A DNA stretch of 64,000 bases from contig OZ020519.1 in assembly GCA_963971425.1 (NCBI GenBank), positions 20,977,397 through 21,041,396 of the forward strand, in the 5' to 3' direction. Source of the DNA: Bryoerythrophyllum caledonicum. Taxonomy: Eukaryota; Streptophyta; Bryopsida; Pottiales; Pottiaceae. Position 1 is the stretch's first letter, and each line of letters starts with the position of its first letter. The translations under genes and the position numbers were made by a program. Under the pieces are notes generated by a model, which saw only the letters and a program-made list of their open reading frames with translations, had not been told where the DNA came from and ran no database searches. Below are positions 3,913 through 56,592 of the stretch, one piece after another.

Positions 3913-4817
3913 AATTCCTCACATTAATGCATTAAGTTTCTTACTCCAAATTAATTTCTAAATGCCTTACATACACTTAGAATTATTACATTAATATTCA
4001 CAATGTCACTTTGACATAGTTAGGATCTTTCCTAACTTTATCTCTTGAAGTTTTAACATTATTAAGTATTCATATTTCACTCATATGTAATACATTAAAT
4101 TTAATTCATCACACACACACACAATTTCATATCACATAATTAATTAGAATAGTATTCTAATTTTTACAATGAAAATCTAAATAAATAATTCATTCATTTA
4201 TGCATAGGAATTTATTCACAATTAATACATCATGCATATATTTGCATTCACAAAACACAATATTAAATTTATTCAATGAAGTTCAAATATTATTGTAATT
4301 ATTCATATGATTCAAGTCACACACAAGACTCTACACATGCAAATTCAATAATAATTATATATTAATAATTTCACACACAACATAATACTCTTATAACATA
4401 AGAGATTTCTTCAATTACTAGCTTTTTTCACCTAAGCTAGGGCTCACTCCAACCTTCCTCCAAGGAATTTCTATGGTAATGGCCAAGAATGCTAAAAATT
4501 CAAGCTAGTCATTCTACTCAAACCCAAGAGGCACACCTCTTGGAAAAACGGTTTTGCCTATAATTAACCATTGAGATTAATTCCACTAAATCCTCACATC
4601 TATTCATATCTAGATATGAAAGGGTACACCCTTCCCAAAGGGTGCGAGTTCAACCCTTTTCCCATTAATCCTTCTATCTTAGATATGAAGAGGTACTTTT
4701 CAATTAATTAAGTACTTAATGTAAACTTAATCATTAATTATTTAATTCTCCATATACCTACAATCCTTTTTACACTTAATTTTCTGAAAAAAGCTATTTT
4801 TAGGATTTAGGCTCTAC
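3913..4817 (-). repeat. Truncated A/D-type gypsy LTR (probable 3' LTR of element A)
   Basis: The interval is closely similar to 24470-25361 in the 5' LTR of element A and to the reverse complement of the first ~900 bp of LTR D. On the minus strand it begins TGTAGAGCC at 4817, the LTR start. It breaks off near 3913, about halfway through, so the U5 end is lost. Confidence 0.8.
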
Positions 4818-5370
4818 ATGCACGATCTTGAATAAACTTATATGTTGAGTGTGCACTGCTGGTCGTTGGTTATGAGTTCATGATTGAGTCGCATGGTTGA
4901 TTGAATGCTGCCCTCATGTTAAGCACAAAAAACTAATAAGAATAAAAAAAACAAACATAAGAATCGGAGTTAGAGTCAAGGAGATAATTAGGATTATATG
5001 TTTGTAGAAAATAGGGAAGTCTGTCTGCTGCCAACTGGTTCCAGGGTCACACCTAAGCCTGAAACTGATCATTAAGGGTCTAATCAAGTTCGGAATGCAG
5101 AATTAAACCCTTAAGAGTTGGAAACATTGCATTCGGAGCCTTAGAACAAAAGTTACTCTTGTTCAAAGGTGGGTTCAATCAAAAGGCTGGATTAAGTCAC
5201 CACCTCACTAATCAACCACAAGGGACCTAAGTGAATATGAGATGTGTCACCATGCTTGTATAAGTTGTGTATGAATGGGCTGAGGATTGGTTACACAAGG
5301 AACTAGGCCCTTGTATTAGGATCTTGTGTTCAAGATAAGCCACCCTTTAGGGGCGGTTTATTGGGCTCAC
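4818..5370 (-). repeat. Fragment of element X (first ~550 bp)
   Basis: Read on the minus strand from 5370 it starts TGTGAGCCC and runs parallel to 28674-29220, sharing GGTGGCTTATCTTGAACAC and GCACTGCTGGTCG-type blocks in inverse orientation. It stops exactly where the gypsy LTR begins (4817). Relative to element C, this fragment replaces the polypurine-tract region just before the LTR. Confidence 0.75.
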
Positions 5371-7176: not shown

Positions 7177-7431
7177 GTCCCATATTGTTTGATGCGCCCT
7201 TGACGCGCCAGTATATAATGGCTTGTTGGCACACACTCCTTCAGTTTGGCCTTGGTGGCCTGGTGATCGTTGGACGCGAGTAGACGCTGCCGTGGCAACC
7301 TGCGGGTGCTAGTGCCGTGTCTCTACTCATCCAAACGACACCCGCCCCACCACGCCACGTAGTGTAGTACAGGTGCAGGTGTAGATATAGGTTTGCAGTT
7401 GGAGCAAAAAAAATTATTTTTTTATTTTTTT
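7177..7431 (+). ncRNA. Putative Pol III-transcribed structured RNA (copy in element A)
   Basis: GTCCCATATTG at 7177-7187 resembles the plant snRNA upstream element (RTCCCACATCG). It is followed after 24 bp by TATATAA at 7212, the spacing typical of Pol III snRNA genes. Transcription would start near 7240 and end in the T7 runs at 7417-7431. The body begins GGCCTTGGTGG exactly 36 bp after the TATA start, as in the second copy at 40218. It can fold into a long hairpin: TGGTGG (7253) with CCACCA (7347), TTGGA (7270) with TCCAA (7330), GAGTAGA (7278) with TCTACTC (7322), GGCA (7294) with TGCC (7313), and ACC-TGCG-GGT as a UNCG-capped tip. It does not match U6, U3, 7SL, 5S or MRP RNA as I remember them. 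The element's own genes lie on the opposite strand. Expression is inferred, not shown. Confidence 0.55.
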
Positions 7432-8018: not shown

Positions 8019-11000
8019 CTAACCATCGTTCCTTCGCTTGTCATGTCGCAGACGCTTGTGCTTAGCTTCATCTTCAGTCTCCAATTCACTCAGAAGACTC
8101 TGCATGTCCGCTTCTTCCAAGTTGCGACACACATCTTCATCTTGTAACAGGTTAGTCTTACGGGTCCGTTGAAAATTCAACCATAATGAGATATCCTTGT
8201 ACCTCTTTGGCTCGAACTCCAATGCGAACGCGGAACTGGATGGTGACAGGAACTGAGTGATGATCATGCACTCAAACATCCAAATCCACCGCGCCGGATG
8301 CTGTTGGAACTTAATCCACATCAAAAACTCCACCTTCTTCTCGTTGAAACAATTAACATTCACCACGATCCTGTAGAATGAGCACATATACGACAGCATA
8401 TCGCAAAACGTTGCAGCTCTAAAACAAACTGGATCTGTATGGTGACGGTGAGCTTCAAAAAAGGTTCGGTAAGAATTCACACACTCTTCTAATGTGTCGA
8501 ATGCCCCCGGAATAATGGGCTAGTTGTATGGCACTATCTCCAATTTTGCCCATACTGCCCACTTATAACGCCGTTGCCCCTGTAGCGGACATAGAGATGT
8601 GCGTCGACAGCTACCGCTGTTGGGACAATCACCGGCCAACTTTGAGTAAGCAAGGGATACACTACGTCCCATGGTCGCCATTGCTTGGGCGACACACCAA
8701 AATCTTCAAGCAGCCACTCCATCGCAGTCCACGTAGCAAAGGGCTTCTCTGAAGCTTCATCAAACATAAGGTCATAATTGCCCAAATATCGCTGCTTGAG
8801 GAAGGATCCCGTCAATAGTAGGGATATCTTCACATGTGGTGGCACCTTGAAGTCGAATGGAGGTGGAGCAAAAAGCACCTGCTGATAAGTATTTTCTATA
8901 CTATGGACAACCACTTGTTGCCCATCCACTATCTTCTTGAGACGTTGACACACTTTGGTGTACTCATGGACGTATTGTCCCGTAGAGAGTTCTCCTCTCT
9001 GAGCAACTGCCTCTCGAGCTTGTACATGAGTCAAGGTACTTAGGAGCGCATTCTCATCACGTATCTCGTGATAGAGAGTTTCAATCACCTGTCTCCACTC
9101 TGGAGGATTCGCTGGAGCCACCCTGTTCTCAGGGATCTTCACCATTCTAAAAACTTCATCAGGCTTATCCAGCGCCCTCTTGAAGGCAAGCTGATGCTCT
9201 AGTGTCGTGTAATAAAGCAAAACTTTAGCACCCCGATCTCCTATCGGGTGTGTAAACTTACTTACACTTGTAAGTTGCAAAGCACCTCGTGCTAGCATTT
9301 CACAGATCAAGTTTCTCATATTGGGATAATGTTTTGCACTATCCCATATGACATCAAACTCCGCATCTTGGAGTGTTGCTCCTAGAGCTATCTGGGTCAT
9401 GCGAAGGAAGGTCTCCCGCTGTAACTCGTAATTACAAAAAAGGGAGAAAGGAGGAGGGGATTGCAACTCATGCTGCCACAAGCACTCTTGCATTCGCATC
9501 TTTGCCCCACACTCAGTCACGACTCTTGACCGAAGTTGATCTCGCTCCTTAGTCAGAGTCTCCACCTCCTTCTGTAACTTGGAGAGGACACTCCTCTCTC
9601 GAGGACGACTACTCACTCCTTTGACTTGTTTCTTCAAGTCTCCTACCGCTCGCGCATGTTGCCCTTCAAATCAGCAACATCCTTGGTATGTTGTTTTTGC
9701 AAATCCGTGACTTCTCTTGCATGCCGTTGCTTGAGCTCCACCAGTTCTTTAGCCAACTGCTCCCCACGGCTTTGCTCATGCTCATATAGATCTTTTGTTG
9801 TACGTACTCCTACAACTGCTGCATCACGTTTGGTCATGAGGTCTTGGACCTCCTTCTTATGTCCTTGGGCTTGTCTCACTTGTTCCTGCAAGTCGGCACA
9901 TTTCTTCCTCCAGTGTGTCACGTGAGTGACTTATTGTGCTACCTCTTTCTTCAATTCGTCCCTCTCGTTCGCTAACTCCTCATTCAGCTGGTCCTTAGCT
10001 TTCCTCTGTACCTGTTCTTCAGCATGCTTGTGTTTCTAGTCATCGGCTTCTTGTTGTACCTTCCGCACATCTGTTACAGCTCGTGACTTCTCCTTGTCAA
10101 GAGCAAACTTCAATTCTTCTGTGGCGCGGAAGATGGCCTCGTTAGTCCTTTGATACTCCTTTATCAAATCATCCTTTTCTACGACCAACAACTCTAATTG
10201 TTTTTTGCCCACTGGCAAGATAGCATCATCTTTGGTCGACTTTCCTCTGGATGAGCTAACGACTCTCTTGTCCACTTTGGCCTTACCCTTCGAGGCCTTT
10301 GAAGTCGTCACTTCCACAGCTGCCTTCAAACTGGTGGCTGGGTCTACGGTTTTTGTAGAAACAACTTCTTCTGCCTTAGAAGTCGTATCCTCTCCATCTT
10401 CCAAGTCGATGACGACTTCCACTTTCTCCTTATCAGCCTCTCAGCTCTTGGTTCCTTCTGTCTCCTCCAAGGCAACAACTAGATTTCGAGGTGTAGGTCC
10501 AATATTGGTAGGTGCTTCCCGTCGTGCCTTCTTCTTGGTGCTCTTCTGTACGTCTGAGGTGGGAGTCCAGTGCTCTTCGCTCTCGGGCTCAGGTTCGGGC
10601 GTCTCTCCCATTTGGAGCCTCCGGGATAAGCCTGTTATGCACATCAAGCGCCCCTGTCTCTCCTTCATCCTCTGATTCCTCTTCTGCTTTCTCATCTTGC
10701 CTCGGTCGCTTCTTAATAGTTGGTGTTGTCTTCTTCTTCTCCTCCATCCACTTAGATGAAGCTTGCTTCCGTAATTCAGGACAAAACTTAGAAAGGTAGG
10801 TGGTGCAGAAGTAGGACTTCGTGTGGCAGGTGGTCTTGCTCGCCATCTCCAACTTGATGTGCACATACATGATCTTGCTCCAGTTAAATCTATCACCATG
10901 CCAAGCCCTGTAAGCTGCTGCAAGCCCTTCAAATGAGATCACATTTGGGCCTGGTAGTGATAGCAGCAATCTTTGATTCACGAAGTGAAGCCAGTCCTTC

Positions 11001-11473
11001 CACCGTGACTTGGCCTTAGTCACTGTGTAACCTTTCTTCGTATCTTTCTTGTCAATCTTCGCGCTCTCTGGTGCATCAAAGATGTTCAGCAGGGTCTCAC
11101 GGTCCAAGAGGGGAATATTCACAAGTGTCAGCCCGTTGTCACTCAGTCCAGGAAAGTGGCTCTTGATGGTCGCAAGGTCGAACGCCACCACCTGGTCTTC
11201 AATGACGAATTTGTCAAGGGTCCCTCTGTCACTGGCGATGATGAAAGCTCGTGCTCGTTGAAGATTCGGTTCGGGCCATCTCTGCATGATAAACGGCCAC
11301 AATCCTGCGCTCTCCAAATTCTGGCGATTGGCTGTCATTGCCTTCTCCGTCAAGTAGTGCATTTCAGATAAGACCAACAGGAAGTCGGTTTTCCTGCTCT
11401 TGGCTGTCGTCATCTTGTCTTGTGTGTCTGCTCTGGTGCAGGCCTCATCAATACTCCAACTTGGCATCACCAT
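8019..11473 (-). pseudogene. ORF3 of element A: large coiled-coil protein downstream of pol, broken
   Basis: About 1,150 codons follow pol on the same strand. The layout is an N-terminal globular part (11473 to about 10750, with RWKDWLHFVNQ and GDRFNWSKIMYVHIKLEM), an acidic and Lys/Glu-rich linker, a long predicted coiled coil (10420-9550, many charged heptads), and a C-terminal globular part with LICEMLARGALQL, HPIGDRGAKVLLYY and HRHHTDPVCFRAATF. The same order and anchor residues recur in element C, which supports real coding history. Frameshifts near 10660, 9640 and 8520 and several stops, among them a TAG where copy C has Trp, show it is dead. No signal peptide or transmembrane segment is visible, so it is not an obvious envelope protein. 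The N-terminal part vaguely recalls plant transposon-protein domains next to Athila-type elements, but I do not firmly recognise the family. Confidence 0.7.
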
Positions 11474-19661: not shown

Positions 19662-19666
19662 TTGTC

Positions 19667-23560: not shown

Positions 23561-23581
23561 CCATCCCCAACATGGTCACCA
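23561..23581 (-). promoter_or_regulatory. Primer-binding site of gypsy A (degenerate tRNA-Asp type)
   Basis: On the minus strand TGGTGACCATGTTGGGGAT follows the LTR end by 5 bp. It resembles the tRNA-Asp-complementary site of plant Tat/Athila elements (TGGCGCCGTTGCCGGGGAT) with several changes. Element D has a closer match. Confidence 0.65.
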
Positions 23582-29517: not shown

Positions 29518-29673
29518 AGCTCGTGATCTTGCTCCTCTTGTTAAGCTCGTGATCTTGCTCCTCTTGTTCAGCTCGTGATCTTGCTCCTCTTGTTCAGCTC
29601 GTGATCTTGCTCCTCTTGTTCAGCTCGTGATCTTGCTCCTCTTGTTCAGCTCGTGATCTTGCTCCTCTTGTTG
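29518..29673 (+). repeat. 26-bp minisatellite inside element X
   Basis: Six near-perfect tandem units containing GCTCGTGATCTTGCTCCTC with a 26-bp period, directly before the 185-bp array. Confidence 0.95.
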
Positions 29674-29683
29674 GTGCTCTTCA

Positions 29684-31248: not shown

Positions 31249-32266
31249 CTCCTATTTTCGCAACGATTGAATCACATTCCAGCCCACAGGAGGGGGAAAT
31301 CTGAACCCTACCTCTCTCTCTCCTTCCACACACCTCTCTCGGTTTCCTAGCTCCTACCACACACCTCTCTCACTCCTACCTCCCACCTTTCGAATGAGCG
31401 CCCCCCAAGGGGGTAACCCCATGACCCTTGCTCCCTTCTTTGTTCCCAAGGTCGTTCCCTTCGTCGTTCACAGCCGCCAATTTGGGTGGGCACATTAATG
31501 GTCACACTAAACAACTAGTAACTAAATAGCAATAATTCACTAGCCACCCTTGCATTTAACACAAGTGGGTGTCCCACTAACCAAGGAATATCTAAATCTA
31601 AACTTTGACTCCATGCCACATGTGTGTGCATGATCTCAATAAGTGAGCTATTAGCTAATTTTCAAAGGTGCAAAAATCTAATCTAACCTACCTAAATTGA
31701 ATTCCCCTTGCTTGGGGTAATTCCTAATTTACTTAGTGATTGATGAGGATTCTTTTCCACTTCTTTTGGACCCTTTTGACTAATTTTTAAGGGCTTTTAA
31801 CGCCCCATTCTTTTTTCTTTTCTCCTCACCATCCTCCTTCTTCTTCTCCCATTTTTTTGGTTTCGTGATTTCTTCATCCTGACCGAATACGGTCTACAAC
31901 TCGATAGGAGGTAAATTCTTCTCCACCACTACTCATTTTAATTCTTTTCTAATTTTCTTTTGTCTTTTTTCCCTTCTCTCTTTGCATTTCTTTTCTGGTT
32001 TATTCCCTTTTTTTTCTTCATTTTTGGCTAACTACATAAATTTCACGATTGCCCATAAATGGCTCCTCTTTTAGTGAGGGGAAAGGCCACTTGGCCATTT
32101 CAATCAAAAAACCACGAGCTAGTCCATGGGATAACCCATTTTCACCACTCATTAGCCTTAATGGACCCGACGTGAGGTCCATTCATCACCGTGAGCCGTT
32201 TTTGCGGCTCACAGGACCCAAAGTGCACCTGACTGCTGATGGAATGGACTGCCAGTTTTGTAGTTA

Positions 32267-32445: not shown

Positions 32446-33620
32446 CGGAGACGGAGCTGTTCCGTGATTTTTGGATATGAGATCCGATTTGGAACTATTC
32501 CGGATTTCTCGGATCTTTTAGATAAGATCTAGCGGACTTCCCATAGGATAGCTACAAGGAAAGCTAAGTTTAGAAGGAACTTAGTTAGTACTTAGTAGGG
32601 AGGTTTTGGAAAAAACCTTTTCATCTTGTTCTTCTTACCTGGCAATACACGTGATATTTTCGTACCAGACTTGCTATCTTGTGCTTATGGTGTGATGTGA
32701 GGAACTTGGGAGAGACGGATCCATTCTTGTGTGTATAGTTACGTGCATGGTTCTTCCGGAATAGAGTAACTCATGTGTTCTGTCGGAGGGGGAAACTATC
32801 TAGGTTAGTGTCAGGAGATCCCCTCGGAGAGTTGGAGAGAGCTATTGTAGAGGTGTTCATGGTAGTCTCCAGGGTCCGGAAGTAGCCAGGAGGGGAAGAC
32901 ATGAGCTGCAGAGGTGTTCCTCGTAATCTCTAGCCAAGGAAGATTTTGTGTTAAATTGAATTCCGGTCAGTGCCGGAGTTCTCCCCTAAGATAGGAAAAA
33001 GCCTGATATAAAGATCTAGACAGAATATCCATAGCAAGCGGTGAGCCTCAATTCCGAGGGAATTGCAACCTTACTTACCGGAATGCCGTTGTAGTCCAGA
33101 CTTGTCTCTGTGTGACCGCATCTGGAAGGCCTTCCGGGTGTCGTGAGAGTCTAAGTCTAGTAGCAGCAATCAAATCTTCAGTTAGCCGAGTAGAGAGAGT
33201 GGTGTTCGGTCACTATAAATTCCGAACAGTGGGTGCCTAGCCACTTTAAGTCACACGGCAGTGAGAAATCCAGCCACTTATACAAATCAGGATCAGTGGA
33301 CTCCGGCCACTTGCTTAAAAACTCTAGGAGCTTCTCTGAGGAGGAACAGAGACAAATCAAGCTACCCTCCAGACTTTCGAAAATACTTTCCGGAAACTCT
33401 TGTACAAAATCCGGACTCCGGAAGGATCCGGATCTACCCTACGTTAGTAAAGATTATAGCTAACTTATAAACGACTTGCCGTAATAAGTTTCGTAATCCG
33501 GAGTATTTGGAAAAGAACATTAGGTCTCTGTGGGAACAAAACCGGAGCCGTTATTTTGGAAAAGCACTTAGTGATGATTGGGTGCATTCCGGAGGGATAC
33601 TGTCTCTACAAACTGCAATA
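32446..33620 (+). repeat. 3' non-coding region of M2
   Basis: Collinear with M1 18830-19661 and the M4 minus strand. It contains GATCTTTTAGATAAGATC, GCAGAGGTGTTCCT, GTGACCGCATCTGGAAGGCCTTCC and TCTCTGTGGGAAC. Many CCGG sites and no ORF. Confidence 0.75.
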
Positions 33621-34518: not shown

Positions 34519-36584
34519 TGTAGAACTCCGTTCCCACTTGGTGCCGGAAGTTAACCTTAAATTCCGGCCAAAACAAAAAAATTAGTTAATTAGTAACGAT
34601 AGTTCTTGCTAGGATACAACCTATAGTCTTCATGTAAGAGTAAAGTCGGATAGACCTAACTGCAAACCCTAATTGAGCCAAAAGTTGCTATAAGCGGAGC
34701 CAGAGTAGTTACCGGAATTCCAAGTCAGTCAGTTATCCGGAATCGTCAGCCGGAGATGTCACCATCAACTGTCATCATGAGCCGTACTAACAGCCAGACT
34801 ACTTAAGGCTGGGGTTTGGTGGGAGATTCTTTCTTTTCACTTCGTCTTCGCGTGTCGAGGTTTTCGCTCCAACTCTCTCTTTCTTTCTTTCTCTCTCTCT
34901 TTCTCTCTCACTCTTGCGGTTTTTCAAACCGCTTGCCGTTAGGGTTTGAAGCTTAGACGGTTAGAACGGACGTGCATCCGTTAGGAAGAGTTTTTGTGAG
35001 GTTGGTGCGTGCAGAGATAATCTTGAGAAACTGTGAGGTGATGGGCAAGTCTCATGAAGTTTGTGCCGATGACAAAGAAGAAGAGGACGGATAGGGATGG
35101 GCGTGGCCAGAGAGACGAAGAGCCGGCAGTTGCGCTCCCTCCCTTAACTCGCGTTCTTCCGGAAATCCCAGAAGACTAGGACAAGTTCAACATACTCAAG
35201 GAGAGCCTGAAGTTTATGGATTGTGAGGGTTTTGTCAAAGTTGCGTGGGGCATCCGGGAGGAGGTCTACGTTCGGGAGCTTGTAGGGACGCAGGACAAGA
35301 AATACAAAAGGCTGATGAGAGCCCACCCGGAACTCTGAGGAGTTCCAAAATGGTCTTAGGCATACGATTTCCGAGCCGGCCGCACCAAGGTGGCGGAACG
35401 GCGGGACGAGTTTCCGGCTGAAGAATTCGTGGGATCAGCGGACCTAAAGGATGGCTACAACCTGCAGGAACTTCGGCACCTGGACGCCCAACTCGTGCTA
35501 GGATTTTTAAACCCTATCTTCCATCCAGAAAAGCGGAGACGGGTGGTAGCGAAGTGGGCATGCACTTTCCTCGGAGCACTCCGGGGGAAGATCGTCGTAG
35601 ATTGGGGAACCTTGATGACCCTGATGATCAACCGCCTCGTGGCCAATCTCTAGAAGGTGAAGGAATCGGCAACACCTCTGGCCTTGTATGTGGTGCACCT
35701 CTACTATCACCACTAGCAGCTAATTCCAGCAGACGTCAAGAAGTACGACGAAGTTCTTAACTTCCAGAAGTATAGAGAGGAGGAGTCAGAGGAGGAAGAG
35801 TCCGGAGGGAAGGAGTTTGTGCCGGAAGCAGCAACCACAGGCACTCCGGAAGGCCGGAGGGCTCCAAAGAGACCTCGGGTGAAAGAGCCCAAGCCGGAGA
35901 GTCCGGAGACCCTCACCTCATCCGCGTCGTCCGGAGAAGACGAGTCCGGACCCTTAGCGGGAACCAATCTGAAGAAGAGGAAGGTTGACCGGGAGGACTC
36001 CAAGGGTCAGCTCAAGCTGATGGATGAGCTCACACGCGATATCGGCTAGAGAATTGGGCTCCTTAAGGAAACCAACTACATCATCACCACCAACGTAGAG
36101 CAAATCTTCCAGAGTCTGGAGGTCGACAGATAGGAAGACGCCATCACCTGGGTGGAGGAACTCCGGAGCAGAGAGACTAACACGAAGGCGTTGCATACCC
36201 AAATCTCCTTCATGTACAAGGCCAGCACAGAAATGGAGAAGAAGATGAAGGAGTACCTCGGAGAGGCAGCCGTGGCGATGATGGCCTGGAAGCTGGCTGA
36301 GGCAAAGGCCAATGCTTTCGCAGCTGCCCTGTTAGAGGTCCGGACGGCTTTGGATTTCCGGGTTGACGTAATCAACCGGAGCCGGCTCTTCACTGAACTG
36401 TTTGAGAAGAAGGAGAAGGTCACCATGGCCAACATCATCCAGTTTCTCCTAGATCAAGCGGAGAAGATGGGACGGACCTGGGAGCAGATGAAGCTGTTGG
36501 TCGACAACACCACCGAGGAGCTTCCGGAAGACCCAGCAGCACCTGGACCGGAAGGCACTGCGACCCCAACACAAACTACGGCCC
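34519..36584 (+). mobile_element. Element M3, left part, cut by gypsy C
   Basis: Starts TGTAGAACTCCGTTCCCAC and follows M2 closely through the leader and ORF until gypsy C's LTR begins at 36585. The rest of M3 should lie beyond the other end of gypsy C, outside this window. Confidence 0.8.
35054..36584 (+). pseudogene. M3 long ORF, 5' three quarters, multiple stops
   Basis: Same protein as M2 in one frame from ATG 35054. Stops occur at about 35175, 35336, 35354, 35651, 35714, 36047 and 36131. At least four of these positions carry Trp or Gln in M2 or M4, so transitions explain them. Well-preserved parts are VVAKWACTFLGALRGKIVVD, the coiled coil from 36152, and IIQFLLDQAEKMGRTWEQM. Cut at 36585 by the gypsy LTR. 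Confidence 0.75.
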
Positions 36585-38571
36585 TGTAGAGTGATTTTTC
36601 ACCACTCTAATAAAACACCCAAGTGTACCCACACCTCATAGGATTCGTTACGGGGATGATCATACGCCTAGTTTTAAGTAATTGGAGATTAATTGTGTCG
36701 TTAAAGCTATCTTTTTGGTTAATTCTTAAGGTTATCTATCTATTTTTAGGAAATTAGGGATGTTAGCATCACTCTTAAGGGATCCACAAACAAAGTCTAA
36801 ACCCCAAGGATCTCTCGTGCCTTAAGACGGAACATTAGTCCTTTTAAGATTGTGCTTATGCCACTAATCCTTAAACACTTGCCACACTGGGCTAATGGAA
36901 GTTTCCATTAAGTCTCATTGCATTGGTTCTTTAATTATAATCTTTAAGAATTCACATTCTTACCTCATGCAAAAACGCTCCACTTTTCACGTCCGTCCAC
37001 TCGGTCCACGTGATCACGTTCTTAAGACAATGGTTAGTCTCAAAAAATCCCATACACAAGTTAACTTAAGTCTTAAAGAGTTCACCTCTTAAGTCTCCAC
37101 TTAAGTTCACTTACCCACAATTATCCCTTAAAGACCACGGTGTTCCACACTTACTCGTACCACTTTGTCTTTAAGATGTCTGAATTTTACTTAAGGCTTC
37201 TCTCTTGGTCGGGTCCATGTTCTTAAGAACACAGTTTCTGTCCTTGAATTCTTAAGCACTCACTTTCTCACTTAGGACTGATTCTTAAGAACCTGCACTA
37301 TCTAGACCAATTCGGTCCTACAGTGTTCTTAAGTTTCTGTCTTTAAGACTTCCAGAATCGGGAGTGCATCTCACTGAATGCAAATGTTGTCCCGTATTCT
37401 CAATTATACGAACCTTTAAGTCCAAGCCCTTAAACTTAAGCGTCTCATGGTACTTAAGGTCTCACTCTTCATAAGCTTATGTATCCAAACTTGGACTTAA
37501 GATTCTTAAGTTTCTATGTTTTCTTCTTAAGTCTTTCTTTGGGATTTATTCCTTATTTTCTCTCTTATGATAGATTCTTAAATACTCACAACTTAGCCTA
37601 CCTTAGAGAATCCCTTCTATTAAGGTTAGACTTAATGCCAATTTTTTTGTATGCATAATATGACACTCTTGCCATGCATCAAGGTATGCCACTTGATGTT
37701 TATTGCACAAATTGCATTTACATGAATAAGAACTCCACTCTTATTCTTATGATACTCAAGTTATGCTCACTCACACTCGAGATCTTATTAAGTACTTATG
37801 CATTACACATCTCATGCACTAAGTCACTTAATTTCACATTATCTCCATTAATCTTCACACTCATGATTAATGCTCCAACACACACACACACAAGGTCACA
37901 CCCACGACCTTAGTAGTTAGGGTATTTCCCTATCTTATTCCATGAAGAATAAATATACAATGCATTCATGTATAAGAATTTTATCCACAATTAATACCTA
38001 ATGCATGCACTTGCATTTACAACACACAATGTCAAATTTATGCAATGAAGTTCACATAATATTGCAATTATACATATGACTCAAGTCACAAGACTCTACA
38101 TATGCAAATTCAATAACAATTATATATTCATATATAAAATTAAATACTCTTACAACATTAAGAGTCATCAACTAGCTCTTTCACCTAAAGCTAGGGCTCA
38201 CTCCAATCTTCCTCCAAGGAATTTCTATGGTAATGGCCAAGAATGCTAAAAATTCAAGCTAGTGATTCTACTCAACATCCAAGAGGTACAACTCTTGGAA
38301 AGAGGTTTTCCCTAGTATTAACCATTAAGATTAATTCCACAAAATCTTCACATCTCTTCATATCCATTCATGAAAAGGTACAACCTATCCAAAGGGTGCG
38401 AGTTCAACCCTTTTCCCATTATTTCCTTATTCTTGGATATGAATAGGTACTTTCCAATTAATTAAGTACTTAGTGTAAAATTAATCATTATTTTTTAATT
38501 CTCCATATATCTACAACCCTTTTTACACTTAATTTTCGGAAAAAATCTATTTTTATCATTTTGGCTCTACA
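36585..38571 (-). repeat. 3' LTR of gypsy C
   Basis: 1,987 bp, starting TGTAGAGCC and ending ..CTCTACA on the minus strand (TGTAGAG / CTCTACA terminal inverted repeat). It shares blocks with the A and D LTRs in the right half, but its left half is diverged and rich in TTCTTAAG instead of ACTTAAGT. Confidence 0.85.
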
Positions 38572-40217
38572 TAGCCCTCCTCTTAGCTTGGAGACGTCCT
38601 CGTCGACTTCAACGACCTTTGTCCTTGAACTTGATCTTTCGCACTCCATCTTCCTTTCTATCATTTTCTTGTAGTCTCTTTAAGCTCCATATAGATTTCT
38701 TCTTACTTGTCTTTATTCTCTAAGAATTGTTGATTTTCTTTATTTGCTTTCCATTGTTCTCCTCTTTAATGAGTATGTCTCATACATACTTGGCTTCAAG
38801 TTTCTCTTTTTAACTTAACTATTTTAGTTAAGTCTTCCATTTGTTGGTTTCCATAATTTTTCATTTTAGCTTTGAATTTTTTCATTCTCTTTTAAATCTT
38901 CATTTTTAATTTTTATTGCTTTTCAAATTTTTCTTTTCAATTTATTTTTTCTTCCATATCTTCCTTTACACTCCACTTGCAATCATTTTTTATATTTTTT
39001 TACTTATTTTTTTCTTTTCACTTCATTCATCATTTTTTTCAAATTAAAAAATTAGCATTCATTAGTCCTCACATCTCTTGATTAGTAAATTAGTAGTGCA
39101 TCCTCACAACTGATTACTAATCCTAGATTACTAATTTTCTTTCTACACTCTTTTATTTCTATTTTTCTAACTTGTGTGAGCTACCCTATCATACACTTCA
39201 AGTAGTGTGTGTATTACTTCACCACTAATCGTCTCATCTACATTACTCACATTGTTTTTCATAGCCTTTTTGCTTTATCTCTCAATATTATCATGTTCTT
39301 TCTTATTTTTCCCTCTCATGATACTCTCTCATTAGAATTATCATGTTCTTTCTTATTTTTTCCTTTCAGGATAATCTCTCAATATAGTTATCATGTTCTC
39401 TCCTTCTTATTTTTTTCCTTTCATCTATATGCCTTAAGTTTATTTTTTATTTATGATTATTATTTTATTTTATTTTTATTATGTTTTTTTAAATTTATTT
39501 TATTTTTTATTTTTTATTTTTACAAATTCAATTGAATTTGCTCTTTCCTTAAGACACTATCCATCCACATATTCTTAAAACTCTCACTACATGTAAGTCT
39601 TAAGATTTTTGTTTTATCCAAAGTGTGATTGACTTTGGTTTTGTTCTTAAAGAAACTCACTCATTAGAGGTTTTTAAGAACTGACTTACTTAAGGAAAAT
39701 AAGGATCTATCCTATTTGTTCTTTGCCTTAAGGAACTAATTTTCTCTTGCTCGTCTGGTTCTTAAGGTTCTAGTCTGCTCAGGGTTGTAACTTAAACTCT
39801 CACTTGCCTTAAGGTCACATGAAGAGATGATCTCACTCAAAATAGGAATCATACAAATTTGTACTTAAAGGGATCTTTTCTAAAATTTTGAACTTAAGGA
39901 GTTGGACTTTAAAGTATAAACTTACTACGTACTGGTTTTTTAATTAGAAAAATTATCTGTTCTTTCAGCTGGTTTGTTTCTTCCCGAACTTGTTTTTAAC
40001 CACGTACAGACAGAGCTCTGTCTGTATTGACACGTTCTTTATAAGTCATAGACTCCGAAAACCAATCTTCTTTTTCCATTCTTTCCTAGGTTCTTCATAC
40101 ATCTTTGATCCTTGTTATTCCTCATACTGCAAATTTGTGAAAATGTGTTGTGCACTTCACCAGATATGGAAACAGTGATAGAAGTTTCTATTTTTCTCCA
40201 TACTAGGATCAACATTT
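38572..40217 (-). other. 3' non-coding region of gypsy C
   Basis: Holds the polypurine tract next to the LTR, then AT-rich sequence homologous to 5371 onward in element A. No gene is seen. Confidence 0.6.
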
Positions 40218-40455
40218 GTCCCATATCGTTTGGTAAGGCTCCTGCGGCTCACGATATATAGGCTAACAGACCTGATACCTTCATCTAGCAGGCCTTGGTG
40301 GTCGGTTAACGTGTGCCGCGGGTACATACTGTCGTGGCAACCTCCGGGTGCTAGTGCCGGGTATGTATCTTTCACACGTGGCTTATCCCACCACGCTTGA
40401 CTAGAGTGCTGACTCCTGTAGTTACAGGCAGTTCAACATGGTTTTTTTTTTTTTT
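40218..40455 (+). ncRNA. Putative Pol III-transcribed structured RNA (copy in element C)
   Basis: GTCCCATATCG (40218-40228) matches the plant snRNA upstream element RTCCCACATCG at 10 of 11 positions. TATATA follows after 26 bp (40255), a Pol III-type spacing. The body starts GGCCTTGGTGG at 40291, 36 bp after the TATA start as in the first copy, and a T14 run at 40442-40455 would terminate it, giving about 160 nt. Pairings are TGGTGG (40296) with CCACCA (40388), ACGTGTG (40309) with CACACGT (40373), TACATAC (40323) with GTATGTA (40361), GGCA (40336) with TGCC (40355), and ACC-TCCG-GGT at the tip. A second small hairpin CCTGTA/TACAGG precedes the terminator. It lies antisense to the host retroelement. 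No known RNA family was recognised. Confidence 0.6.
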
Positions 40456-40870
40456 CATAACTTACTGTTTAATATTTCCTTCTTTGTGTATACACTTCCA
40501 AGTCACCGAACCTCCTTTCAGCTGACTTCCACTTGTATATTTTTTAATTTTCGTAGCACACTCCTAGAATTCTTCATTCCCAGATAGTTTCTCCTTTTAA
40601 TTAGTTGTTGACTCCATTTCTTCGTGTTCATAATCTTATGACATCGTATCATGCAGCTAATATCATTCATATTTTCAGAAGATTGCAGCTTTACAGGTTT
40701 TTGTTCAGTCTTTCAAAATCAGCTATCGCCTCATTATCCTGGCTTCCACAATAAGCCATATCCTAAGTTCTCGAAGCTGCAAACTTCTAAACTCTAGCTG
40801 CAATCACAAAATTCCATCATAATATTTACATTGTCTGCACAGAGCTTCTCCTAAAAAAACTCATGTCTAC
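40456..40870 (-). other. Spacer between the RNA locus and ORF3 of element C
   Basis: Mixed AT-rich sequence with no ORF of note. It is the counterpart of 7432-8018. Confidence 0.5.
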
Positions 40871-43800
40871 TCAAGATCTTGGTATGGCTTCAAGTCGAGG
40901 ACGCTTGTGCTTGTACGCATCCTTGAACTCACACTCTTGGAGAATCAACTGCAGCTCAGCCATCTCCACATTACGACGAACATCCTCATCATGCTTGAAG
41001 AGATACGTCTCGTGTGCCTTCTGGTAACTCAACCAGGCAACCAGCTGCTCTTGACGCTTGCTGGAATTCTCCAAGGCAAACACCGAGCTCGCACCGTGGC
41101 GGAAGTTGGTAATTACCATACACTCCAAAGTCCTCATATGGCGACTTGGCATCTGTTGCATCTTCGTCCATAGGTGAAACTCGAGCTTGGTCTGGTCAAA
41201 TCTGTTGACATTCACCACGCACTTGTATCGCATATACATATGAGATAGGATGTTGTAAAACACTGCAGCTCGAAAACACACAGGGTCCGTGTGTCTTCGG
41301 TGAATCTCAAAAAAGGCTCGATAGGAATCACTGCATTCCTGGGGAGAAGAAAAACTCCCTGGAATCTGTGGCCAGTTGTAAGGCACTGTGTCAAGCTTAC
41401 TCCAGGGCGCCCACTTGTAACGCCGATATCCCTTCAAGGGACACTGGTGGTAGCTCATCGTGATCGCTGCTGGTGGCACCGTTGACCACGTCTGGGATAC
41501 CTTGGGATATAGTTGATCCCACTGTCTCCAGACTTGCGGTGACAAGCCAAAGTCCTCCAACAGCCAATCTATGGCTTGCCATGAGGGAATGGCACCTCCT
41601 CCTCGCTATTAAACAGATTCTCGTACTCTCCGAGAAATCGTTGCTTGTTCAACGATCCGGTCACTGGTAGTGGCAAGCCTCCCTAGATCGTGTGTCTATA
41701 ATCTGGAGGGGGTGACATGAAAGTGGCCATCTGAACCGCATCTGCCACATCCACCGTTTTCTTCTTTGCTCCCTCGATCGCACGCTTAAGTCGGTGGTGA
41801 GCTCGGACCTTGGCGTAGAGATACTGCCCCATCGTGATCTCACCTCGCTGAGCCAAGTCCTCGCGCTCCTGGACTTGAGTCATGCATCCCACAAAGCTCT
41901 GCTCGTTCTGTAGCAGCTTTGTCAGCTTCTCCATCTGGTTCTTCCATTCTCCCAGATAGTCCGTGGAGAGGGGAACTGTCTTCAGATCAACCTCCGGAAT
42001 GACTACCATTCGTTGAGCTACATCCGGTTGATCATACTGCCTCCGCATCTGCAGCTGCCCCTCCAAGTGCCAGTAATATAGTAGCACTCTGGCTCCAATA
42101 TCACCGATCGGCACCAGCAGCTGTCTCGAGTCCTCCAGCTGAAGGTCTTGTCTCACAATCATTTCGCAGATTAAATTGTGCATATTGGCGAAGTTCGCCG
42201 CTACGGTCCACAGGTTCTGGAATTCTCCTCGGCTCAGCTTGTCTCCATGATTCAAACACATCATGGTTAAACAAGCGGTCCTCTGCAACTCATAGGCTCG
42301 GAAGAGTGCAAAGGTTGGCGGACTGTGTAAGTCCTGGCGCCAAATTGCCTCTTGGAGTTTGCTCTTCACTCCTCTATCTGTAGTCGTCTGTGCAGTCAAC
42401 CGGGCATTAGCCTCGGTGACATCTCGTACCTTCTCTTCCAACTCTGCTACCTGTGAAGAGTCAGGCGTAGCTACGGTCGACGCTTCCCTACTCGCCTGCA
42501 CCTCCCTCTTCTGTTGTGCTACGGATGTCGCTAACTCCTTCGCCAAATTTTTCTCAGCCTGATACTGCTCCTTCACCAGCTGGTGTTGACTCTTAGGACT
42601 CTCAATCTCGAGCAAGTATTCTTCAACTTGTCGCTCCTTCGCAGTGTGGAGATCCTTCCAGTGGGCAGCGCTCCCGGAAGCTTGCCGGAGCTCTTCTTGC
42701 AACGTGTGCCAATCTCGCACCTGTGCTTCCTTGTCTCCAGCTAGAGCTGAATTTTCCTTCTCCGACTCCGCCTTGAGGCGATGGTACTCCTGCTCCATGT
42801 GGCTCAGCTTCTTCTGCAACTCCTCGCATTGCTGTGCCTTAGTGGTCTATTCGTTGCACAAGGTCTCCCAGCGCTGAACTTCTTCAGTTGTTTGGGCCAA
42901 CTTCCCTCGCAGCTCACCTCGCTCCCTGTCCAGCAGCTCTTTAGCTCGCTCTGCTTCCAAGAGAGCCTTCTCTAGCCGGAGCTTCTCGCGTTGGAAGTCC
43001 TTCTGCATCTGATCCTTGGCCAACAAGATGTCCTTGTTGGTGGCTTGGTATTGAGCTACGAGATCATCCTTCTGGATCACCATCAGCTCGAGATTCGCCT
43101 TGTTCAACTCCCGAACCTCACCCTGTTTGGTGCTATCTGCCCCCTGCGATCTCTTCTCTGTTCGCTTGAGAGGAGCTTCATCTTCAGGGTCCTCCATTGT
43201 GGCAACCTCGGGAGCAGCGTACGGAACAATCTGCTTGGATGGTGTCTTGGACAGCTTCGCTGCTGCTGGTGGACGTGGTTCCTGTCCTGAGGTGATACTC
43301 AAGACACCTCCAGTGGAGATCGCGGGCTTCACCTTCTTCTTCTGCACTTTTGCCAACGGTTTCTTCCCCTTGTCTTTCGCTGGTGCAGGGGCTTCGGGTG
43401 ACCCTGGCGTCTCCTCTTCTGCGTCCTCCCTTGCTGGACTGGTCATGTCTTCATCTCCTACATCTTCTTCTTCTTCGGAAGCCTCTTCCGGTTCCTCCAC
43501 CATCTTGCGCAATCTCTTCTTCTTGGAACTCCTCCCTGATTCTTCTTCCACCTCGTGTGCTCCTCCAGTCAAGCTCTTCCTCAGTGGGGGACAGATTGCT
43601 GAGAAGTACGTGGTCCCATGGAAGAAAATGCTGTGGCGGGTATTCTTCCCTGCTAGCTCCAGTCGGAGATGCGCGTACATGATCTTGGACCAATTGAGTC
43701 GCTCTCCATTCTAGCTCTTGTACGCTGCAGCCAATGCGCTGGGTGATAATACCTCCGTTCCATCAAAAGCCATCAAGAGTCAAAGGTTGATAAATTTCAG

Positions 43801-45804: not shown

Positions 45805-48800
45805 TCAAGTTACGTACTTTTTGAGCCTATAGCCATTATAGCGTGTTGCATGCACCTTACCTGCAAAATCTTGTAATTCCACAGAACCATTAGGATAAGA
45901 TTTAAGTATTTTGTATGGTCCAAACCATCTCATTTTAAATTTTCCTGGAAATTTTTGGAATCGACTGTCATAGAGTAAGACTAAATCATTTTCTTTTAGA
46001 GTTTTTGGTTGTAATTTACTATCATAATAAGTTTTCCTTTGTTTTTGTATAGCTTCCATATTCATGTAGGCTTGACCTCTAATTTCATCTAGACGTTCTA
46101 GATTATCTAATCTTTCTCTTAGAGATTGTTCATCATCTAATCTTTCAGAAATTGCCACACGTAGAGAAGGTAATGCCACTTCTATCGGGAGCATAGCTTC
46201 CAATCCATATACTAATTGCAAAGGGGTTGCTTTAGTTGTAGTTTTTATTGTACATCTATATGCCCATAATGCATTATTCAACTCATAATCCCAATTAGAT
46301 GCATTGCCTTGTAATGTCTTAGTGATAATCTTGCAGAGAATACCATTAGACTTCTCAGTTTGTCCATTAGCTCTAGGGTGATAGGGTGACGACTTACGGT
46401 GCTTAATAAAATACTTTTGCAACATTTTCTCAATAGTATCATTGATGAAATGAGTCCCTCTATCACTTACAATTTCTTTTGGACACCCAAACCTAGTGAT
46501 GATATGTTCATAAATGAATTTTGCCACAGTGTCTGCGTCATCATTTCTAGTGGCAAGGGCCTCTACCCATTTAGTCACATATTTGGTTGCAACCAAGATA
46601 TAGCGTTTTTGACCCTCACGACTAGGTGGTTTAATGGGACCTACAAAGTCAATTCCCCATTTTTCAAAAGGAATTTGTGCTAAAATTGGTGTTAATGGCA
46701 TAGCCTTAGTGGCTATCGGTTTACCAACTCGCTGGCAAGGATCACATTTTTTAACATAATTAGTGGCATCGGCAAAAAGTGTGGGCCACCAATAGCCTGC
46801 TCGCAATACTTTTTGAGCTGTAGCCCAGCCCGCAAAATGCCCTCCACAGACATCATCATGACATCCTACTAAAATCATTGACACTTCACTAGGATTTACA
46901 CATCGTCAAAGTATATCATCTTTGCCTCTCTTATAGAGAACACCACTAATCATGGTGTAAGGCAAAGATTGATGGACTAGTTTAATTTTATCTTTGCTAG
47001 TGTATTCAATAGGAAAAGTAGCCTTAGTTAAATAGTAGATGATGTCGGCATATTCTTTTGGAATTACATCAAGTACCTCCACACCCTCTTTAACAGAAAA
47101 GATGTGTGCATCTGGAAAGTTATCATCTATGGACTGTGGATTTATAGTCTCACTAAGTCTTGATAAAAAATCTGCATTTTGATGTATTTTCCCCGGTCTG
47201 ACATTAATGGTAAAATCAAACTCTTGTAATAATAAAACCCATCTTGCAATTCGACCACTTAATTGAGGCTTATTGATCATATACTTCAAGGCATCATGAT
47301 CAATATGAAAAGTGAATTTATATCCCAATAAATAATGTCTATATTTTTGAACAGAGAAAATCATGCCAAGACCTTCTCTTTTAGTTACAGAATAGTTCCT
47401 TTTTGGGGCACTCAACTGTCTACTTGCAAAGTAAATTAGTCTATCATGACCTTTGGAATCTTTCTGGCTTAACACACTTCCAATTGCCATATTAGACACA
47501 TCAACATATACTTCAAAGGGTTTTGTCCAATCTGGGGGAATTAGAACAGGTGCTTTACTAAGACGACGTTTTAACTTGTTAAAAGCTTTAGTGCAATCAT
47601 CTGTCCATACCCCCGGTAGTAAAGTTTGTTTTGTTAAGACATTCAAAGGTGCTGCTATAAAAGCAAACTTATAAATAAATCTTCTATAGTAACCTGTTGC
47701 ACCTAGAAAGCCTTTTAGTCCCGTGAGATGTTTGGGAATTTCTATTTTAATAATAATGTCTACTTTGTCTGGGTCAACCGATATTCCCTCTTTTGAAACA
47801 ACATGACCTAATAATTTACCACATACAGTGGCAAACTCAGACTTAGCAGCATTTATGGAGATGCCATACTTTCTACATTGATCAAAACATTTCTTTAAAT
47901 TTTGTGCATGATCTTTCTTAGAACCAAACACACAAAAATCATCTAAAAATATCTCCATAAATTTTCTAAGATATTTTGTGAAGGCTTGAGTCATAACTCT
48001 TTGGAATGTTGCCGGAGCATTGCACAATCCAAATGGCATGACATTATATGCAAAAGTCCCCCAGTCCGTAGTGAAAGTGGTCAATGGTTTATCTTCTAGG
48101 GCAATCTGCACTTGATTATAACCCGAGAATCCATCAAGGAAGGAATAACACTCATGACCCGCTACACCATCTAGGACTGCATCAGAAAATGGTAAAGGAA
48201 AGAAATCTTTCTTAGTGGCTTTATTCAACTGTCGAAAATCCTGACAAATATGGATCTTACCATTCTTTTTAGGTACTATGATAATAGGTGACACCCACTC
48301 ACTAAATGGCACAGGATAAATGAAATTACACTCCGGTAATTTATCAATTTCCTCTTTAACCATTAGAGAATACTTTGGGTTCATCCTATATTGCCTTTGC
48401 CTAATAGGTTTAGCATCCGCTTCTAGGATAATTCGATGTTGACAAACATCAGGAGGTATGCCTTTCAAATCTTTATAAGTCCAAGCAAAGGCATCTTTCT
48501 CCTTCTTAAAGAATTCCAACCATTCTTCATATTCTTTAGAACTTAATTCATCATATATTTTAATAGGCTTAGGATCTTCCATAGTGCCTAAATTTATTTC
48601 TATAGTATTTTTTACTAAAGGTCGAACATTAGGTGTTTTCTTATCACCTAGCAACTCATCCGAGTCTGACACATAAGGAATTTCCTTATCTGACTCTCCC
48701 TCAGTAGTAATGTTAAAAATATGAGCATTTTGCCATGCTTCAATAGCTGCATCCAAGTCATCAACTTGACTAGGAGGGACAAAATACTCTCCAGGACTTA

Positions 48801-51800
48801 AACCTTTAAACGTAGGCATGTCCTGGATAACATTAGTATCTTCAGGCTCAGATTCTGAGTTTGGATCAGTAGTCCAATCTGAAGCATCATCTTGAGTCTC
48901 ACCATGATAGTTTGCAGGAAACATGGGAAGAATAATTTTACTTTTGCCCTTCCCAATTGTCAAAGTTCCCTTGCCCCAATCGTCCTTGGCTTTAGCTAAT
49001 GACAACCAAGGTCTGCCAAGGAGAATAGGATATGTGGAAATAGACTCACTCACCTTAAAGACAATATAGTCAATTTTATAATCAATTCCACCAATTATTG
49101 TATTTAATTGTATCAATTTTCCCAAAGGTTTGACTCTACTTTGATCGGCCATTCTTAAAATAATAGGAGTAGGTGTTATGGTAGTTATGCCTAACTCTTC
49201 CATAGTATCAACACTCATAAGGTTGACACTACTCCCACTATCAATTTGGACTCCATCAATTAAAGTTCCATCTATAATTACATCGACTGTAGGTGCACCT
49301 GGATCTAGAGAGATATCATGAACGTGCACAATTTCAGGTTGAGATTTACTTGTTTCCTTATTTATTTTTTGTTTAGTTTTTTTAACATTGTCCTCCTCTT
49401 GTATTTTTGTTCTCTTTCTAATTAGAGAAGAGGTTAACTCATTCTTACAATAAGGTGACAATGCAAGTAATTGTCTCAAAGAAATTTGAGGTTGTAATCT
49501 ATCTAAATCTGTGAGAATATCATATGGATGCATACCCACTGCTAATCTCATAATCCTATTATGTTTTCTCTTTTTTAAAGACATAGATGATTCTTTCATT
49601 ATCTTTTCTGAAGGCATATAAAAAGTAGGTTGTTCCAACGGTTTCATGGAAGTACTTGGTTTTTCCACATCTGGAATTATAGATACAACTTTTTCTGGCA
49701 AAGGAGGTGTTATAGGTACTTGAGTAGGATTTTCATGAGAATCACTATTTGTTATTTCTATTAATTGTGATCATGGTTTAAGAATTTCTGGTCTTTTTAG
49801 TATAGTTGGCATATTTCTAGCAAGCACAGGATTAAGTTTTACTTTGCTATAATCACTCTCTGAACTACTAACGAGTTCTTTTTCAAGGGCCTTCTTGGCT
49901 TGTGATCTCGTGATAAAGACATCTTGAGGTGTATCAATTGCCATATAGTTTACATTTCTAGTATTAGAAGACTCTACTTCTTGAATTTGAATTTGTTTCC
50001 TAACATTAGGAAACTCAGTAATTATGGCTGTGCAAAAGGTAGAAACATGCCCCGTTTGCCCACATCTTCCACATAAGGGATTAAAACCAACTTGTTGGCG
50101 TGCATTTGTGCATTCCCTAGAATAATGACCTGGCTCTCCACATCTATAACATACTACTTCTTTGATTCTATCTTGGTTAGGTCCTCTCCAAACTTGGTGT
50201 TGACTATAACCATTATTTCCTCTCGGATGGTTATTTTTGTTTCCTGGTCTGGTAAAAGGTTGTTTGGATGTAATTCTATAAGGTTATTTTTGGTTATTAT
50301 TTTGAGAAGGTTGCTCTTGTACTAGGGCCTTTACTTCCTTGATATTTCTACAAGTAGTTATATCATGGCCCTTAGCACCGCAATAAGCACATTTAAGCTT
50401 AGGTGTTCCTCCTTTTGGATATTTACACTCGGTGGCCAAGTGTCCATGTCCCTTACAATTACTACACCAAATATTAGTTCGTTGATTAGTAGCCTTAGGT
50501 CGCTTATTTCTACCTTCATTAACTTGGACTGACAATTCTCTAAATTGTTTTTGTAAGGCTTGGAGCTCATTTTCCTCATGACTTGGAGGCATCAACGCAA
50601 GTTGTTGCTCTCTAGGATGAGGTGGTCCTTGTATAGTTAATTGGGGTTGACTAGATATTGACCTAGGATAATAATCTCTTCCACTATTATCCATCCCATA
50701 TTGAGTAGTTACAGGCAAAAGATATGGATCCTGATATGGAATCCTTTTTGTCTGTAACAACATATTAGATCGCTGCATAGCAGCTTCTCAATTTCTAGCA
50801 GCTTCATATGCTGCATTTAAATTTGCCGGGTTGGAAAGTTTAACCTGGTATATACACATAGGATCTAATAAACCTCTGGTAAAGGTATTAGTGATCCATG
50901 CTTCTGGCATATTATGATCTCGCCATCTATTCAATAAGTTTCTAAGCCGAGTATAATATCCGGCTATAGTTTCTGTGGGATACATTTGAAAACTTTGTAA
51001 CTGATCCTGCAAAGTCTTATGATAAGACTGGGGTCTGAACCTGGTCAAAAATGCTTCTTTTAAAGCATCCCAGTTTATTGGTTGAGGATCTAATGCTGCA
51101 TACCACCTTTGAGCTTCCCTAGTAAATTACCAGGAAAACTAGTGATATACTTATCAATTGCTAAATTATTAGCTATTGCTACTACTTGAAATTTTTCCAA
51201 GTAGGAATCTGGATCTTCTCCCAAATCACCATAGAATATGGGAAATGGAGCTATATTAAGCATCCTATGATGCGCCATAGCAAGGGGATTAACAAAAGGG
51301 TCGTCAGGAGTAGGAGGGGTTGAAGGTGGTGAGGATAATGAGGACCTGCTAGAGGTAGAACTAGCAGAAGAAGAGTCAAAAGGAGAAGTCCTCCCAGAAG
51401 TATGTGAGGAGAGTCCAGCTGGACTCTCTTCTCGCACTGGTGGTTCTGAGTGTTCTTCTTCTTTACTTTCACTATTAAATAAACTTTCACTATTAAATAA
51501 ACTTTCACCTTCTTTAGGCTCACTTTGCTCACCTACATCTAACTTTTCCTCTTTAATAGGATTATACTTAAATTCCTCTCCTTTTACACTAGATTGGTCA
51601 ATCTCTTCTTGTATGTCAAAGTTTAAAGTGGTAGGTCTAAGAATTTGGCTAAAAGCTTCTAATAACTCCTTACGAAACTTATGCTTTTCTTCTTCATTTT
51701 CCAATGGTCTATCATTCAGAAAATGGTCAATAGATTCTTTTGCTTCACTATGAGTAAATATTGGTATTTCCAATTTTGACTCAAATTTTTGGGCAAAAGG

Positions 51801-56571: not shown

Positions 56572-56592
56572 TGGCGACGATGCTGGGGATGG
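56572..56592 (+). promoter_or_regulatory. Primer-binding site of gypsy D (tRNA-Asp-like)
   Basis: TGGCGACGATGCTGGGGAT starts 7 bp after the LTR and matches the tRNA-Asp complement used by plant Tat/Athila elements (TGGCGCCGTTGCCGGGGAT) at 16 of 19 positions. Confidence 0.75.

Follow-up and report, generated by a model that had tools for sequence, protein, structure and literature searches.

An autonomous lineage of Athila/Tat-like Ty3/gypsy retroelements in the genome of Bryoerythrophyllum caledonicum probably carries an RNA polymerase III (Pol III) gene of the U6 type, antisense to its protein-coding genes, whose product is most likely a protein-binding accessory RNA. The promoter, fold, strand and position of this gene are conserved across the copies examined, and selection acts on its promoter, fold, strand, arm length and base letters as well as, by comparison of two diverged elements, on the letters of its apex. 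Transcription by Pol III and the ends of the RNA are predicted from sequence signals. The preliminary description had proposed a retroelement-borne antisense gene with a Pol III snRNA-type promoter, and this identity is supported by a promoter and fold that extend through the whole family, by the strand polarity that G-U pairs provide and by the promoter layout of the host's own U6 genes.

Retroelements of the window and the RNA gene in two of them

The window, by which we mean the whole 64,000-nucleotide stretch analysed (C7:20977397-21041396 of a 437-Mb genome), is filled by nested retroelements (Table 1). The genome has 58 matches to the light-harvesting family PF00504, as befits a photosynthetic eukaryote. 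Elements A, B and C are mutually related members of Ty3/gypsy that encode reverse transcriptase (RT), RNase H and integrase (the last detected in A and C), and their pol genes have diverged to dS values of 0.94-1.73 (B or A versus C). We call them Athila/Tat-like because of their layout alone, the lineage features being those given in the accessible part of PMC6317226. The same part of that source describes a second, archaeal-type RNase H as the mark of the Tat clade (PMC6317226); in the pol of element C Pfam recognises one RNase H only, and no second. The extra ORFs of A and C share protein segments that are 32-56% identical, and those of element C have no Pfam match. A gag search returned no homolog among the 7989 candidates scored, and IMG/VR or GTDB contigs yielded no confirmed encoded relative of either the extra ORF or pol. 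The motif TGGCGACGATGCTGGGGATGG of element B is presumably of the primer-binding-site type.

Several further features of the window may be recorded here. An ORF lies between the primer binding site and gag both in B (56790-57284, + strand) and in A (22870-23364, - strand). The pol region of element A is split by a 3.6-kb GC-rich insertion (16080-19665), parts of which recur at 32812-33396 and 52549-53137, and an assembly gap of 200 N lies inside the same element at 20668-20867. A repeat family containing a proline-rich ORF with no Pfam match is found at 26012-28673, 34519-36584 and 53561-54613, and a 185-bp tandem array (29681-31249; 8.5 copies, 93%) adjoins a 26-bp array at 29511-29672.

Table 1. 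Retroelement features and RNA gene signals, given as positions in the 64,000-nucleotide window
Feature	Position	Strand	Basis or remark
Element A	25359 down to ~3914	-	Ty3/gypsy; strand of pol
Element C	~52330 down to 37876	-	Ty3/gypsy
Element B	from 54614	+	Ty3/gypsy
pol of element C (RT, RNase H, integrase)	45805..49701	-	Pfam
Extra 3' ORFs, element C	40871..43680	-	strand of pol, opposite to RNA gene; relatives P0001, P0002
Extra 3' ORFs, element A	8019..11473	-	between pol and 3' LTR
3' LTR, element C	37876..38572	-	as far as alignable; start TGTAGAGCC after purine-rich AGAGGAGGGC
LTR at 3' end of element A	3914..4819	-	as far as alignable
Putative primer binding site, element B, TGGCGACGATGCTGGGGATGG	56572..56592	+	position and motif
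Equivalent primer binding site, element A	23561-23581	-	3 mismatches against B
C copy USE, GTCCCATATCG	40218..40228	+	1 mismatch to plant USE RTCCCACATCG
C copy TATA box	40255..40260	+	26 bp after USE
C copy predicted start, TTCA	40283	+	28 bp after TATA start; from sequence
C copy GGCCTTGGTGG	40291	+	sequence
C copy long imperfect hairpin	40284..40404	+	MFE, shuffles, joint fold with A, 78 distinct copies
C copy near-invariant apex GTGGCAACCTNCGGGTGCTAGTGCC, UNCG loop	40334..40358	+	24/25 identical to A
C copy T14 terminator (putative)	40443..40456	+	TTTT-free from predicted start to T14
A copy USE, GTCCCATATTG	7177..7187	+	2 mismatches
A copy TATA box	7212..7217	+	24 bp after USE
A copy GGCCTTGGTGG	7248	+	sequence
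A copy hairpin	7247..7357	+	apex 7292-7316; single and joint folds
A copy T7 terminator (putative)	7417..7423	+	TTTT-free from predicted start to T7

In both A and C the extra 3' ORF and the 3' LTR enclose the RNA gene, which runs antisense to gag, pol and the extra ORFs. Alignment of the two elements by blastn yields an island at 75% identity (7248-7355 with 40291-40396) together with 17 bp around the USE, and no other alignment from ~6105 of element A up to the extra ORF; judged by its letters, the gene is a conserved island between diverged elements. Its GC content is 0.56-0.59 against 0.31-0.33 in the flanks. A USE with at most two mismatches followed by TATAWA at 22-28 bp occurs at the A and C sites only when both strands of the 64 kb are searched, and 40 shuffles gave three such sites in total (0.075 each). 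Each copy ends in a T-run behind a gene body that is free of TTTT, as is expected of a Pol III type 3 terminator; the TTTT-free stretch measures 174 nt in A and 158 nt in C, and among windows of these lengths in the flanks only 150 out of 2291 and 34 out of 1968, respectively, likewise contain no TTTT. The particulars of the preliminary description were borne out at this level: the USE-TATA gaps of 26 bp (C) and 24 bp (A), the identical distance behind the TATA box (36 bp to GGCC in both copies), the T14 and T7 runs, and the location of USE, TATA, UNCG loop and T-run on one strand, the + strand.

The gene family and its promoter across the genome

The last 23 nt of the apex, with the N of the loop left free, occur exactly at 130 sites in the genome and the reversed control at none. 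This number is the full count of the pattern; 100 of the places were listed and 40 of these fetched as the apex-found set, the remaining 60 having been fetched previously or omitted (including the greater part of two tandem arrays on C8). Matches to the C gene number at least 40 at 94-100% (40 of 230 candidates scored) and those to the A gene at least 40 at 87-100% (40 of 180 candidates scored), plus one fragment. The resulting 122 records are made up of 120 loci and the window copies A and C. An apex with at most three mismatches is present in 105 of them, and the 17 that lack it are all 10-kb stretches adjoining the window. These 105 records stand for 103 loci (window C is L001, and L046 and L061 are one gene) and contain 78 distinct hairpins. 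Decayed copies are under-counted because those with more than three apex mismatches were left uncollected. In IMG/VR or GTDB contigs the apex had no match.

The first 40 copies were chosen by gene match, a choice that biases their gene divergence downwards (hairpin 1.8% against flanks of 8.3 and 5.7%); divergence was therefore taken from the apex-found copies, for which the apex itself is in turn uninformative. The 40 apex-found copies are not a random sample either, as sites already fetched by gene match were omitted and the best A and C gene matches are mostly absent. Overall, two groups emerge, a C-type divided into several subtypes and an A-type in which several promoters occur, beside outliers such as L083/L111 and L093; when split by tail motif the apex-found set comprises 31 C-type (including L083, L093 and L111) and nine A-type copies (including L118). 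Apex sites recur at near-exact spacing on C8:72282-107456 and C8:18057528-18088998 (17,576 bp twice and ~10,483 bp three times), which suggests that entire elements, or segments of them, stand in tandem there.

In every one of the 13 tested loci whose flank is long enough (L001-L008, with L001 being window C, L041, L046, L060, L121 beside L093, and L122 beside L111), the extra ORF is found 3' of the RNA and on the opposite strand, and the start of the 3' LTR lies beyond the gene on its other side in the three of three loci that reach that far. The gene therefore travels with the element lineage, and it predates the divergence of families whose extra proteins share ~40% identity. None of the loci was recognised as a free-standing copy, although the stretch retrieved for most of them was too short to show their context.

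Within the apex-found set, 38 of 40 copies have a USE with no more than two mismatches, and in 33 it reads GTCCCATATCG; measured against the published consensus, 34 copies have one mismatch, four have two, two have four and none is perfect. The TATA box follows 26 bp past the USE in 34 of the 40, the other six lacking a literal TATA in the interval, and a gap of 23-26 bp separates the two elements in all 20 copies of the A search. L093, the most diverged copy fetched, has a degenerate promoter. In L118 unrelated DNA replaces the promoter and the hairpin is intact. Mean pairwise difference among the 31 C-type copies is 0.035 in the USE, 0.116 in the TATA box and 0.16 in the spacer between them; from TATA to base it amounts to 0.27. 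The two strands of the base differ by 0.035 and 0.067, the arms by 0.13-0.14 and the flanks by 0.27 and 0.23, and the 3' tail, the poorly conserved distal part of the gene, by 0.20. In the nine A-type copies the base strands show no difference (0), the arms 0.07-0.09, the spacer 0.30, the tail 0.10 and the flanks 0.31 and 0.19; here the promoter boxes stand out less, because USE (0.157) and TATA (0.171) exceed the 0.122 found between TATA and base, L118 being included.

According to the accessible part of the literature, plant Pol III genes of this class possess a USE near RTCCCACATCG at around -70 and a TATA box at around -30, the USE being one helical turn closer to the TATA than in Pol II snRNA genes (PMC9845283). 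The retroelement gene has this type 3 layout of USE and TATA, which we compared with the U6 genes of the host. At least 38 U6 matches were obtained (48 of 34,896 candidates scored), and the upstream regions of 20 were read. If the motif closest to the published USE is chosen at any distance, the first TATA follows at 24 or 26 bp in 14 of the 20 (seven each), whereas five lack a literal TATA and one differs; the motifs depart from the consensus by two to four mismatches over the 20 genes. When AT boxes are allowed within a limited interval, a box is found 28-31 bp before +1 in all 20, and with a looser USE pattern defined by eye a USE-like element (for example ATCCCATAACGTTTG) precedes the box by 24-26 bp in 19 of them. 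Because these spacings agree, the retroelement gene can be said to have the host's own U6 promoter layout. CCCTAAA repeats are present upstream of several host U6 genes. Most of the host U6 genes read (L123-L142) begin with GTCTCTTCGGAGAC, the letters of the 5' stem being altered relative to angiosperm U6 (GTCCCTTCGGGGAC).

Hairpin, strand polarity and covariation

Folded singly, A and C each adopt the same + strand hairpin of ~115 nt (z of -2.7 and -4.3 against shuffles), with base, arms and apex in the same order, and the folds of the reverse strands are weaker by 10 and 14.5 kcal/mol. The base is formed by GGC, UGGUGG / CCACCA, GCY and the apex by UGGCA.CC-UNCG-GG.UGCUA. The hairpin of the preliminary description is thus present in both copies, its extent having been underestimated: the real one is longer and includes the base helices UGGUGG/CCACCA and GGC/GCY. 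The joint fold of A and C contains 38 pairs, of which 25 are unchanged, seven changed on one side, six changed on both sides and none broken. Its energy of -49.7 (null -34.7 +- 4.2) was reached by none of 120 nulls and the number of pairs kept by five of 120; the six two-sided changes among 38 pairs, taken from A versus C alone, do not rise above the null, 41 of 120 reaching that count. In these comparisons the null re-optimises the alignment by enumeration of gap positions, with the same freedom for real and null sequences. An alignment by MAFFT from sequence only had misplaced one gap and given three two-sided pairs (P 0.03 and 0.13), and was replaced by the enumeration.

The covariation argument of the preliminary description, in which GAGTAGA/TCTACTC in A faced TACATAC/GTATGTA in C with six of seven pairs changed, was overstated, its helices having been compared with a shift of three columns. 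Once they are placed by position, GAGUAGA/UCUACUC (A) faces GGGUACA/UGUAUCU (C), and all seven pairs are kept, two by two-sided and two by one-sided change, with three unchanged. The UNCG tip claimed alongside it holds in 72 of the 78 distinct hairpins (67 UCCG, three UGCG and two UUCG), the remaining six having other loops; apex-found copies are uninformative on this point because the search pattern admits UNCG alone.

Across the family the evidence for the fold is broader. RNAalifold applied to a plain MAFFT alignment of the 78 distinct hairpins returned 33 pairs, for which 2518 of 2561 cells (98.3%) are standard; read on the opposite strand, the same cells are standard in 79.2%, a fall that arises because 513 of the standard cells are G-U. 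The base, arm and apex helices reappear in the individual MFE structures of 77 of the 78, and the arms measure 32-33 / 27-29 nt in 104 of 105 records. For covariation, a tree was built from promoter and tail with the hairpin left out, and 2000 re-pairings served as null. Branches with a two-sided pair change number seven against 2.9 expected (reached by 28 of 2000), and four of them end paired against 1.2 expected (41 of 2000). The signal is carried by few splits, and for one of these four branches the reconstructed starting state is unpaired. One-sided changes keep the pairing in 83 of 122 cases (0.68), little above the null of 0.61. A clean example is pair 36-76, at which L083/L111 have G-C where the C-type has C-G. 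Of 34 stem changes among the C-type copies chosen by gene match, 22 preserve the pair (0.40 expected under a simple substitution model) and 12 break it. A statistical test on more copies, for which the preliminary description had called, hence finds pairing widely kept and an excess of two-sided changes that is modest; covariation in the hairpin family is real but modest. Pairing kept by compensatory change on the transcribed strand characterises a structured non-coding RNA, and the hairpin family shows such pairing on the antisense strand.

A candidate accessory RNA, its alternatives and known systems

The comparison with Rfam that had been proposed from the outset gave no family that matches the RNA gene. 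At gathering score nothing is reported in the window; a search of the gene at E=10 returned one chance match, Six3os1_3, on the other strand; and at E<=1 eleven loci, diverged copies included, gave SOX2OT exon 1 and SNORD75, both sub-threshold and neither over the RNA gene. ARAGORN found no tRNA, and no source gene was found, so that the gene may have been captured or may have evolved within the element. Capture of a SINE was considered and rejected: the + strand ends in T, without an A-tail, and internal A and B boxes were sought via ARAGORN alone.

We propose that Pol III would make an RNA of 160-180 nt ending in oligo-U, driven by the external U6-type promoter (USE and TATA) independently of the LTR promoter. 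The RNA would be a long imperfect hairpin in which apex and base are fixed and the stems between them may swap letters provided that pairing and length are kept, and it would act as a protein-binding accessory, either within an RNP or as a decoy. Such constancy of apex and base between exchangeable stems is what an RNA would show if its two ends bind protein and its stem has to be of a set length. It does not fit a guide RNA or a miRNA precursor, in which the stem letters would be conserved, or a loop-kissing regulator of copy number, in which the loops diverge; an accessory RNP or decoy is preferred because of this pattern and because a Pol III unit is independent of the LTR promoter that the host silences. 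The top candidate target would be the double-stranded-RNA and small-RNA machinery of the host, followed by a role as cofactor of the element's extra protein. The partner and the benefit of the RNA are matters of conjecture, and a decoy directed at host double-stranded-RNA and small-RNA proteins is a conjecture that we consider less likely than not.

The alternatives draw on the same observations. A Pol III-type hairpin gene in a retroelement could be the precursor of miRNAs or siRNAs cut by Dicer-like enzymes, for which bovine leukemia virus and foamy viruses supply published precedents in the accessible parts of the sources; we hold this to be improbable, as bulges interrupt the stem and the stem letters vary between subfamilies while apex and base are fixed, the reverse of miRNA conservation. 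Antisense control of copy number, whereby the RNA would limit the element's sense transcript by pairing with it, seems improbable to the same degree: the RNA is complementary to that transcript by its position, yet such control needs complementarity rather than kept stem pairing, and no part is more constant between A and C than the apex (24/25; 130 genome sites). Loops in loop-kissing systems diverge between families. That the promoter alone matters, as a chromatin boundary or opener with the RNA a by-product, would agree with a USE kept as well as the hairpin base in the 31 C-type copies, but it leaves the kept fold, apex and arm lengths unexplained and is less probable again.

A hairpin that serves the sense genomic RNA in its packaging, export or stability, with antisense promoter-like signals that are incidental, is very improbable. 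The conserved fold does fall within the genomic RNA's 3' untranslated part, and the reverse strand also forms a hairpin of its own; this is, however, the weaker fold by the 10-14.5 kcal/mol given above, standard pair cells drop from 98.3% antisense to 79.2% sense, the UNCG loop exists on the antisense strand alone, and USE, TATA, start motif and T-run match the antisense strand and the host U6 genes. The faintest prospect is a captured pseudogene of a host RNA (SRP, telomerase, U3, MRP or U6): the promoter is indeed of the host U6 type, but Rfam yields sub-threshold chance matches only and the plant telomere template CTAAACCCT is absent from the + strand of the window. An accessory RNA that binds protein thus remains our preferred reading. 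In its fullest form, in which a whole autonomous lineage has evolved a U6-type antisense accessory non-coding RNA that acts in trans after the fashion of viruses, continues to be produced under LTR silencing, counteracts or recruits an RNA-binding protein of the host and is the first in any LTR retrotransposon, the proposal is tentative and its chances fall slightly short of even.

Retrotransposons fill plant genomes and are generally viewed as acting via their proteins and one LTR-driven RNA. If the proposal is true, these elements possess an accessory function able to persist under LTR silencing, which would provide a handle on the persistence of giant elements. More than 100 copies in a single genome, together with an apex that hardly varies, should allow direct fishing for the partner protein, and the case suggests that ncRNA searches on repeat-masked genomes would overlook such genes.

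Other LTR retroelements with a Pol III promoter are the TRIMp3 elements Cassandra, Helenus and Ajax, which, as far as the accessible part of the source describes them, are short and non-autonomous and carry a 5S- or tRNA-derived promoter within the LTR (PMC10886601); the present lineage resembles them in having a Pol III promoter and differs in being giant and autonomous, with gag-pol present and a separate gene outside the LTR. Retand, Ogre and Athila share with it a long region between pol and the 3' LTR that holds additional genes, in Retand antisense; in the accessible parts of the sources these extra ORFs are protein genes and an RNA gene is unmentioned (PMC11963269, PMC6317226). The open-access papers searched yielded no description of a separate U6-type RNA gene in any LTR retrotransposon. 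Bovine leukemia virus and foamy virus, by the portions of the literature accessible, are retroelements that have a separate Pol III short-hairpin unit besides the main promoter, as here; unlike the retroviral Pol III miRNAs, the present gene has an external U6-type promoter, is antisense, belongs to a plant LTR retrotransposon and conserves apex and base rather than stem letters. Its promoter is like that of the host U6 genes, with a USE 24-26 bp before an AT box that lies 28-31 bp before +1, whereas the encoded RNA is unrelated and there is no Rfam U6 match at the retroelement gene. Adenovirus VA and Epstein-Barr virus EBER are Pol III decoy RNAs with other promoters and animal hosts; on their general description alone, the candidate RNA may be likened to them as a compact imperfect hairpin from a parasite's own Pol III gene. 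Parasite-encoded Pol III RNA is already known, and there is a real chance that the class is new among LTR retrotransposons.
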